A DNA stretch of 35,624 nucleotides from Clostridiales bacterium DTU073. Its GTDB lineage: Bacteria > Bacillota > Peptococcia > DRI-13 > DTU073. This document shows, piece after piece, positions 33,796-35,624 of the stretch; position 1 is the first letter of the stretch; the number at the start of each line of letters is the position of its first letter. The notes below the pieces were generated by a model. The model saw nothing but the letters and a program-made list of their open reading frames with translations. It searched no databases and had not been told where the DNA came from. A program made the position numbers and the translations under genes. The stretch is from positions 31,114-66,737 of the forward strand of contig LFSF01000028.1 in NCBI GenBank assembly GCA_001512665.1, written 5' to 3'.

Positions 33796-34380
33796 GTGCG
33801 AATTATTGCCGGAACTGCTAAAGGTCGCACTTTAAAAAGTTTGAAAGGTATGACTACCAGACCCACACTTGATCGAGTGAGGGAAGCAGTTTTTAATATT
33901 TTAGGAGCAAAAATTAACAATGCGTCTGTTTTAGATTTATTTGCCGGTACAGGTGCGATAGGGTTAGAAGCCTTAAGCAGAGGAGCAGCTTGTTGTTATT
34001 TTAATGATAAAAATAAGGCGGCATGCCGGATAATAAGAGAAAACTTAACAAAATGTGCTTTTACACAACCCGTTTTTATTTTAACAATGGATGCTCTAGA
34101 GTGTATATCTTATCTTCAGAAAAAAGGGATCAATAATTTTGATGTTATTTATTTAGATCCTTCCTATAAAGAAGATATATACTCTTTGCTGTTGAAGCGT
34201 ATATTAGAAGCGCAGCTTCTGGCTGAAGAAGGTATAATTATTATTGAAACTGATAAATCGACTTTTTTAGAAGAAAAATATTCTTTAGACCAAAAAGAAC
34301 ATCAAGTAGTAAAGCTAATCAAAAAGAACAAGTACGGCGATACTGTTATTTGGTTTTACAAATTATGGGGGGAGGAATAA
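33796..34380 (+). CDS. rsmD: 16S rRNA (guanine966-N2)-methyltransferase
   Basis: RsmD methylates G966 of 16S rRNA with SAM. The 194-residue protein begins MRIIAGTAKGRTLKSLKGMTTRPTLDRVREAVFNIL, the family's signature, followed by the SAM motif VLDLFAGTGAIGLEALSRGA (about 50-69). The catalytic motif usually DPPY or DPPF reads DPSY here (about 120). GTG 33796 is the start, with AAGGAG 13 bases upstream, a rather long distance. In many Firmicutes coaD follows rsmD; here a coiled-coil gene follows instead, starting 2 bases after the stop. Confidence 0.93.
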   Translation: MRIIAGTAKGRTLKSLKGMTTRPTLDRVREAVFNILGAKINNASVLDLFAGTGAIGLEALSRGAACCYFNDKNKAACRIIRENLTKCAFTQPVFILTMDALECISYLQKKGINNFDVIYLDPSYKEDIYSLLLKRILEAQLLAEEGIIIIETDKSTFLEEKYSLDQKEHQVVKLIKKNKYGDTVIWFYKLWGEE

Positions 34381-34382
34381 AG

Positions 34383-34850
34383 GTGGAGATTATGCGCTTG
34401 TTGGAGGAATTTGAAAACGTAGTGGAAGAAAGCTCTCGTATTCCCATGACAGGAAGAGTTATTATTCATGAGGACATTTTGTATAAGTATTTGGATGGGT
34501 TTAGAGCGATGCTGCCTGAAACGATTAGGGAGGCAGAATGGGTGATTAGAGAGAAGGATCGTATTATCAAACAGGCAGAAAAAGAAGCAGATACAATTGT
34601 GGAAACTGCTAAAAGTAAATTAGAAAAAATAGCAGGTGAAAGTGAAATTGTAAAAGAAGCGAAAGCTCAAGGTGAAGAAATAATAAATAATGCCAGAAAT
34701 GTGGCTAGAGAAATAACTCAAGGTTCTTTTGCATATGCCGATGAAATTATGGCGAAACTACAAGAACAATTAGAGAGAACTATGAGTGTTGTTAATCAAG
34801 GACGCGATGAATTAAGGTTAAATATAAAAGATAAAAATATCAGTGAGTAA
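34383..34850 (+). CDS. Coiled-coil protein of unknown function (ATPase-stalk-like)
   Basis: This 155-residue protein is mostly charged helix. Residues 1-45 (MRLLEEFENVVEESSRIPMTGRVIIHED) look like a compact head; from about 50 to 150 it is a continuous heptad-like helix rich in Glu, Lys and Ala (REKDRIIKQAEKEADTIVE, EEIINNARNVAREI). Similar Clostridial proteins next to rsmD have been labelled ATPase or F0 subunit B-like because of the stalk-like helix; there is no nucleotide-binding motif. No signal peptide or membrane segment is seen. GTG 34383 follows GGGGGGAGG and lies 2 bases after rsmD, so the two are co-transcribed. A DivIVA-like scaffold role is possible but unproven. Confidence 0.8.
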   Translation: MEIMRLLEEFENVVEESSRIPMTGRVIIHEDILYKYLDGFRAMLPETIREAEWVIREKDRIIKQAEKEADTIVETAKSKLEKIAGESEIVKEAKAQGEEIINNARNVAREITQGSFAYADEIMAKLQEQLERTMSVVNQGRDELRLNIKDKNISE

Positions 34851-34871: not shown

Positions 34872-34899
34872 CCGGTAATTTTTATACCGGTATTTTTTT
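34872..34899 (+). terminator. Intrinsic terminator after the coiled-coil gene
   Basis: A 6-bp stem CCGGTA with TACCGG (34872-34877 with 34885-34890, loop of 7) is followed by TA and seven T (34893-34899). It ends the rsmD operon. Confidence 0.75.
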
Positions 34900-34963: not shown

Positions 34964-35040
34964 GTAGATTAAAGGCGAAACCATAGAAAAAACTGAAAAC
35001 ACGCTTGTTTTTTATTATATTAATACAGGGGTGAGGCTTT

Positions 35041-35624
35041 GTGACAAATAATAGTTCAGGGGTTGGTAATTATTTTGTAAAAAAAGGCGAAATAACGGAA
35101 AAACAATTAGCAGAAGCTTTAAATAAACATGAAAAAACGGGTAAAAGAATGGAAGAAATATTAATGGAAGAAGGTTATGTATCTGAAGATAAAATTAAAG
35201 ATTATCTCAGAAATAGATATAATATTGTCTCTGTGAATTTGTCTGAACAAGACATTCAAGCTGATGTTCCTCTCTTAATAAGTGAGGATATTGCGAGAGA
35301 CTATATTTTAATTCCTTTTAAAAAGAGTCAGTATCGGTTATTGGTAGCTATGGTGGATCCTTATGATTTAGATGCTATTGAAGAAGTTGAAAAGGCTACA
35401 GGCTTAACTGTACTGCCGAGAAAGGCAAAAGCCAGAGAAATTATGCAAAAGATTGAATTGCATTTTTCGGGAAAACAACCAAAAAATATCTTTAAAGCTG
35501 CTGAAATACTTGAAAAAAATCTAGATAAAGCTAAAAAACTGGAAGAAGAAGCTAAGTTGAGGGCGGAAGAAGAAGCCAGGTTGAAAGCAGAGGAAGAAGC
35601 CAGATTAAGAGCCGAAGAGGAAGC
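35041..35624 (+). CDS. MshEN-domain protein with Glu/Ala-rich repeat helix (3' end outside window)
   Basis: The gene runs off the right edge; 194 complete codons are visible with no stop. The start is GTG 35041, with GGTGAGG just upstream. Residues about 8-145 match the MshEN/GspE N-terminal domain of type IV pilus and type II secretion ATPases: VGNYFVKKGEITEKQLAEAL, MEEILMEEGYVSEDKIKDYL, ISEDIARDYILIPFKK, LLVAMVDPYDLDAIEEVEKATG. In place of the linker to an ATPase core, a charged helix begins near residue 150 and becomes a regular 8-residue repeat (EEEARLRA type) from residue 168. Some MshEN domains bind cyclic di-GMP. Whether a PilB/GspE ATPase domain follows cannot be seen. Confidence 0.85.
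   Translation, partial: MTNNSSGVGNYFVKKGEITEKQLAEALNKHEKTGKRMEEILMEEGYVSEDKIKDYLRNRYNIVSVNLSEQDIQADVPLLISEDIARDYILIPFKKSQYRLLVAMVDPYDLDAIEEVEKATGLTVLPRKAKAREIMQKIELHFSGKQPKNIFKAAEILEKNLDKAKKLEEEAKLRAEEEARLKAEEEARLRAEEE
35542..35624 (+). repeat. 24-base coding tandem repeat (8-residue E/A-rich unit)
   Basis: Three full in-frame units (35542-35565, 35566-35589, 35590-35613) and the start of a fourth encode EEEAKLRA, EEEARLKA, EEEARLRA and EEEA. Third codon positions differ between units (GCT/GCC, TTG/TTA, GAA/GAG), so protein repetition is older than very recent slippage. The array continues past the window edge. Confidence 0.9.

Follow-up and report, generated by a model that had tools for sequence, protein, structure and literature searches.

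Two MshEN domains separated by a charged low-complexity spacer in a PilB-type pilus ATPase from one bacterial family

Introduction

Work on V. cholerae MshE has established where an MshEN domain contacts cyclic di-GMP (c-di-GMP) (PMC5013675); we score twelve contact residues, the motif comprising two RLGxx...LxxxLxxQ stretches. T. thermophilus PilF carries several such domains and binds two c-di-GMP, and its non-binding GSPII-A domain has His and Arg at the two Gln positions; these replacements, together with changes at the second Arg and the second-motif Gly, contribute to its lack of binding (PMC12002112). Docking is described for the type II secretion ATPase, whose N1 domain is bound to GspL in the complexes 2bh1 and 4pht; the corresponding contact between the N1D of PilB and PilM is inferred by homology, and the contacts made with the machine by the N-terminal domain of pilus assembly ATPases are poorly resolved (PMC11656802).

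Here we describe a gene at the 3′ end of a 35,624-nt stretch of DNA from Clostridiales bacterium DTU073 (C3:31114-66737; hereafter the window). A first-pass annotation had suggested that this gene could encode a stand-alone signal-sensing adaptor, in which an MshEN domain is held apart from its effector by a rigid helical rod.

Results

A pilB gene that runs past the end of the window

The features considered here are as follows.

34350..34850, + strand: conserved 166-aa coiled-coil-like protein upstream; the order rsmD, this ORF, pilB is the same in the relatives G006 and G004
34872..34890, + strand: terminator-like hairpin belonging to the upstream gene and placed between it and pilB (1 found, 0.3 expected)
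35027..35036, + strand: good ribosome-binding site AGGGGTGAGG preceding the GTG start codon of pilB, read from the sequence
35041..35624, + strand: 5′ part of pilB, 194 codons in the window; the gene continues past a gap of 41 N to C3:68749
35056..35475, + strand: MshEN1 (GSPII) domain, with an N-subdomain at about residues 6-60 and a C-subdomain at about 61-145 (Pfam, AlphaFold2, Foldseek)
35488..35624, + strand: start of the charged spacer, predicted to be a single continuous α-helix (AlphaFold2 helix 150-193; salt-bridge test)
35541..35624, + strand: (AEEEARLK)n encoded by a tandem repeat of 24 bp, which the gap interrupts (TRF)

The pilB ORF begins with GTG and is open at the end of the window, the last base of which directly precedes the run of 41 N in the assembly. 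Because the window stops exactly at this run, the missing ATPase core is an artefact of where the window ends. The eight-residue repeat stays in an open frame up to the gap and beyond it; after the 41 N it resumes as AEEEARKK AEEEARRK AEEEAKK and leads, with no stop between, into a second MshEN domain (MshEN2; PF05157, 75.9 bits) lying directly ahead of a full T2SSE core (PF00437, 465.3 bits, over post-gap residues 273-651), in which the Walker A motif GPTGSGKT and the paired cysteine motifs CLDC and CPTC can be read. Downstream on the same strand, Pfam matches identify T2SSF/PilC, three N_methyl pilin-like ORFs, PilM, PilN, a weak T2SSM match and PilX_N. Reading beyond 35624 and searching the protein against Pfam, as the first-pass annotation had suggested, recovers the pil genes, a further MshEN domain and a T2SSE core. 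The protein scores 618.4 against the PilB equivalog TIGR02538 (cut-off 675.65) and 606.7 against the GspE model (cut-off 630.25); both scores are below cut-off, so that the designation PilB-type is based on the core and on its operon. The feature in the window is almost certainly the N-terminus of the type IV pilus extension ATPase PilB.

Repeats commonly cause assembly gaps and scaffold gap lengths are commonly estimates, for which reason we take the length of 41 N to be unreliable. The gap is unbridged by reads in the window genome, and the fusion of MshEN1 to the core here rests on orthologs and on the two open frames. Judged from the orthologs, the window part and the core probably form one polypeptide, in which an additional MshEN domain stands ahead of the usual PilB parts.

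Ahead of pilB, the terminator-like stem agrees with the terminator that had been annotated there, and the start of a new transcription unit is plausible; the dedicated promoter that had been assigned to the gene finds no such backing, promoter-like sites being present at chance frequency (3 found, 3.4 expected). A search of the same region with Rfam returned no c-di-GMP riboswitch. The 166-aa upstream protein has no Pfam match and shows a weak likeness to DivIVA and ATP synthase b models in profile searches. As a separate observation, an RCC1-like repeat ORF and the LamG-like ORF that follows it (L003 16727-19023; domain names assigned by eye) share 31 bases in different frames, and look like parts of a single secreted protein divided by a frameshift or an assembly error.

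Relatives and distribution of the tandem arrangement

In G006, a genome of the same family, an intact 889-aa ORF comprises MshEN1, a 190-residue charged spacer, MshEN2 and T2SSE; the named collection lists this locus under 'Clostridia bacterium isolate AS05jafATM_84', and the other two near relatives there are the 'Peptococcaceae bacterium' entries UBA3937 and UBA5356. In G001, both MshEN domains and the core are contained in a single 1134-aa ORF, with a mostly acidic spacer of 518 residues. The order MshEN1, spacer, MshEN2, ATPase core is thus present as one ORF in two relatives. The two halves of the gene lie at the ends of two contigs in G004, where the break falls inside a KAQEL/KKEQEL repeat, and in G003 the gene starts at a contig end, with a tail resembling MshEN1 and then an EQ repeat of about 100 residues. 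Each of the five same-family genomes that have a full PilB core of the tandem type shows MshEN1 or its tail; G002 and G005, two small genomes of the family, gave no full PilB match. G003 also encodes, beside the tandem protein, a second, ordinary single-MshEN PilB of 570 aa (L048, G003:C218).

No pair of MshEN domains with a spacer was detected outside the family in a class sample of 46 genomes, and no pair outside it among 99 distinct MshEN-T2SSE ORFs in the fetched loci. Among the matches listed from a phylum sample of 398 genomes, the ORFs are mostly 560-630 aa and none has the tandem-with-spacer architecture. A wide spread of this architecture is rejected, as it was seen in the window's family alone within the class sample, the fetched loci and the phylum matches listed. 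Judged from these searches, the tandem MshEN PilB is a family-specific variant, found in a small group of uncultured Clostridia, of a theme already known from multi-MshEN PilB-type proteins such as Thermus PilF.

Two further observations concern other ATPases. PilB ORFs of about 720-835 aa occur in G052 and in the same-genus genomes G098, G136 and G222, and the G052 protein has Gly/Ala-rich extra sequence between MshEN and core, another site that tolerates a low-complexity insert. In a gammaproteobacterial T2SSE ORF of 1262 aa (L119 2072-5857), MshEN lies only at residue 644, behind a long N-terminal extension that has no Pfam match.

Fold and c-di-GMP contacts of the two MshEN domains

The assignment of an N-terminal MshEN domain is upheld by a Pfam match (PF05157, residues 61-144, 55.3 bits, cut-off 23.1) and by an AlphaFold2 model with the complete two-subdomain fold over residues 6-142. 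In Foldseek searches, the best match of this model is GSPII-A of T. thermophilus PilF (9g1w), and V. cholerae MshE (5htl) is matched at E 4.1e-9; weak fold matches were also returned to the N1-GspL complexes 2bh1 and 4pht (probability 0.84-0.89, E above 0.3).

MshEN1 of the window has 5 of the 12 contact residues. Equivalents of R9, L10, Q32, L39, G40, L54 and Q61 are missing, with Gly at R9, His at Q32, Glu at G40 and Arg at Q61. The c-di-GMP sensing that had been suggested for this domain is accordingly doubtful. MshEN2 of the window has 10 of the 12, with Met in place of L54 and Leu in place of Q61, and its G003 counterpart has all 12, that of G006 having 11. Both domains exceed the cut-off of 38 for the NCBIfam c-di-GMP-motif model NF053729 (MshEN1, 51.1 bits; MshEN2, 62.1 bits), and because MshEN1 passes despite its 5 contacts of 12, we regard its loss of c-di-GMP binding as likely, not proven. 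Given five GGDEF matches and one PilZ match in the window genome, c-di-GMP is probably made there. MshEN2 is a possible c-di-GMP switch.

The charged spacer

An eight-residue charged repeat had been noticed after MshEN1, and it stands: TRF reports a period of 24 bp (8 aa) at 35541-35624, with 3.5 copies and 80% matches. In the 31-residue repeat, net favourable i,i+3/i+4 salt bridges number 22, compared with 0.2 +/- 4.5 in shuffled sequences, of which 0 of 3000 scored as high. Favourable charge pairs similarly reach a net 22 in the whole pre-gap spacer (0.6 +/- 5.2) and 90 in the G006 spacer (1.0 +/- 11.2). AlphaFold2 predicts one continuous helix over residues 150-193 of the window part, with pLDDT of about 77-95 by blocks of ten, and a spacer helix over residues 161-299 of the G006 ortholog, the model of which is weak as a whole (pLDDT 68, pTM 0.27) and is used for the spacer helix alone. 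The spacer in the window genome is therefore predicted to be, probably, a semi-rigid single α-helix, and it resembles single-α-helix (SAH) sequences both here and in the nearest relative.

The same position is filled quite differently elsewhere in the family. Spacer length is at least about 150 residues in the window genome, compared with the 190 of G006 and the 518 of G001, and the make-up is of the KAQEL type in G004, of the EQ type in G003 and mostly acidic in G001, with no conserved sequence. On these comparisons, the spacer is conserved as such and the helix is not. This turnover rules out a conserved rigid rod. What the first-pass annotation had named as its refutation is largely seen: past the gap lies an ordinary PilB core, and the relatives carry other low-complexity stretches at the same place.

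Evolution of MshEN1

In a tree of MshEN domains, the MshEN1 copies form one deep clade apart from MshEN2 (support 100/98), which rules out MshEN1 as a recent duplication of MshEN2. Because this clade is deep and single, MshEN1 appears to have been long retained. It evolves faster than its partner, identity between the window genome and G006 being 58% for MshEN1 and 83% for MshEN2. In G001 and G004 its N-subdomain is truncated, the first helices being gone together with most of the ligand motifs. Between these same two genomes, the C-subdomain of MshEN1 gives dN 0.11, dS 2.1 and dN/dS of about 0.05, and MshEN2, compared between the window genome and G006, gives dN 0.10 and dS 1.9, about equal constraint; all are NG86 values, with dS near or past saturation. 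Judged from these rates, the C-subdomain is under strong purifying selection although the ligand-binding half has been lost.

Discussion

Two readings would deny that the window part belongs to a pilus motor. If the 41 N are taken literally, the two pilB halves are out of frame and the first ORF is 217 aa long, and the locus would then hold two genes, one for a short stand-alone protein of MshEN and helix and one for an ordinary PilB, the stop between them falling within the gap. The repeat that stays open on both sides of the gap, the uninterrupted 889- and 1134-aa ORFs of two relatives and the uncertain length of scaffold gaps all speak against this arrangement, which we consider very unlikely. 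Less credible again is the stand-alone adaptor with a rigid rod, for which the succession of MshEN and SAH-like helix within the window is the evidence; the ATPase core follows in the same gene, the rod is unconserved among relatives, and the intact 889-aa ortholog, in which MshEN1, MshEN2 and T2SSE share one ORF, refutes the adaptor unless the window genome differs. Short-read assembly breaks at low-complexity spacers of pilB, which can give a motor the look of an adaptor.

Two other readings accept the extra domain and differ over what it does. MshEN1 could be merely a neutral or decaying N-terminal addition which, with its spacer, lacks a function of its own, as its faster divergence, the truncated N-subdomain in two relatives and the unconserved spacer sequence would suggest; its presence, whole or as a tail, in every family genome with a tandem-type core, the low dN/dS of the C-subdomain and the deep single clade make such an addition improbable. 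It could instead bind c-di-GMP itself, a possibility to which we give slightly less weight still. The NF053729 scores, the probable presence of the signal in the genome and the two c-di-GMP bound by PilF argue for binding; seven contact equivalents are missing, changes at the two Gln, the second Arg and the second-motif Gly contribute to the lack of binding by GSPII-A of PilF (PMC12002112), and most of the binding subdomain is gone in two relatives.

We favour a docking role because the C-subdomain is constrained, the MshEN1 clade is deep and GspL is where the corresponding N1 domain of type II secretion ATPases docks. MshEN1 would be a docking arm tethered to PilB, its partner inferred and its mode of docking GspL/PilM-like by analogy; the spacer would set the reach of this arm, its make-up being replaceable, and MshEN2 may act as a c-di-GMP switch. 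Because the spacer turns over among relatives, its reach would matter more than its rigidity. The docking mechanism is put forward tentatively, as a serious candidate somewhat short of probable. The account as a whole, a PilB with two MshEN domains, a charged spacer between them and MshEN1 as docking arm, we hold to be fairly probable. More speculative, and in our estimate unlikely, is a family-specific scheme in which a c-di-GMP-blind MshEN copy of PilB has become a dedicated docking arm on a long, freely changing tether (single α-helix, KAQEL repeat, EQ repeat or acidic stretch), with selection acting on the docking half; if it holds, tether reach would set the recruitment of the pilus motor.

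Several known systems share parts of this architecture. SAH domains of myosins and INCENP (PMC5812594, PMC4571873) have the same kind of charged E/R/K/A repeat, with opposite i,i+4 pairs and one predicted helix; unlike them, the spacer is replaced by other sequences in relatives, and the SAH state here is a predicted one. The usual PilB with one MshEN domain, about 560-600 aa long in Clostridia and other Bacillota, corresponds to MshEN2 plus the T2SSE core, likewise in a pil operon, and has neither MshEN1 nor the spacer. V. cholerae MshE shares the MshEN fold with MshEN1, which differs from it in the contact residues lost. T. thermophilus PilF (PDB 6f8l, 9g1w) is a PilB-type ATPase that also has multiple MshEN domains at its N-terminus; the first of them is degenerate in the c-di-GMP motif, has the same His and Arg in place of the two Gln, and is the best structural match of MshEN1. 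Whereas the three MshEN domains of PilF lie close together (residues 6-150, 164-300 and 304-476), the protein described here has two, set apart by a low-complexity spacer.
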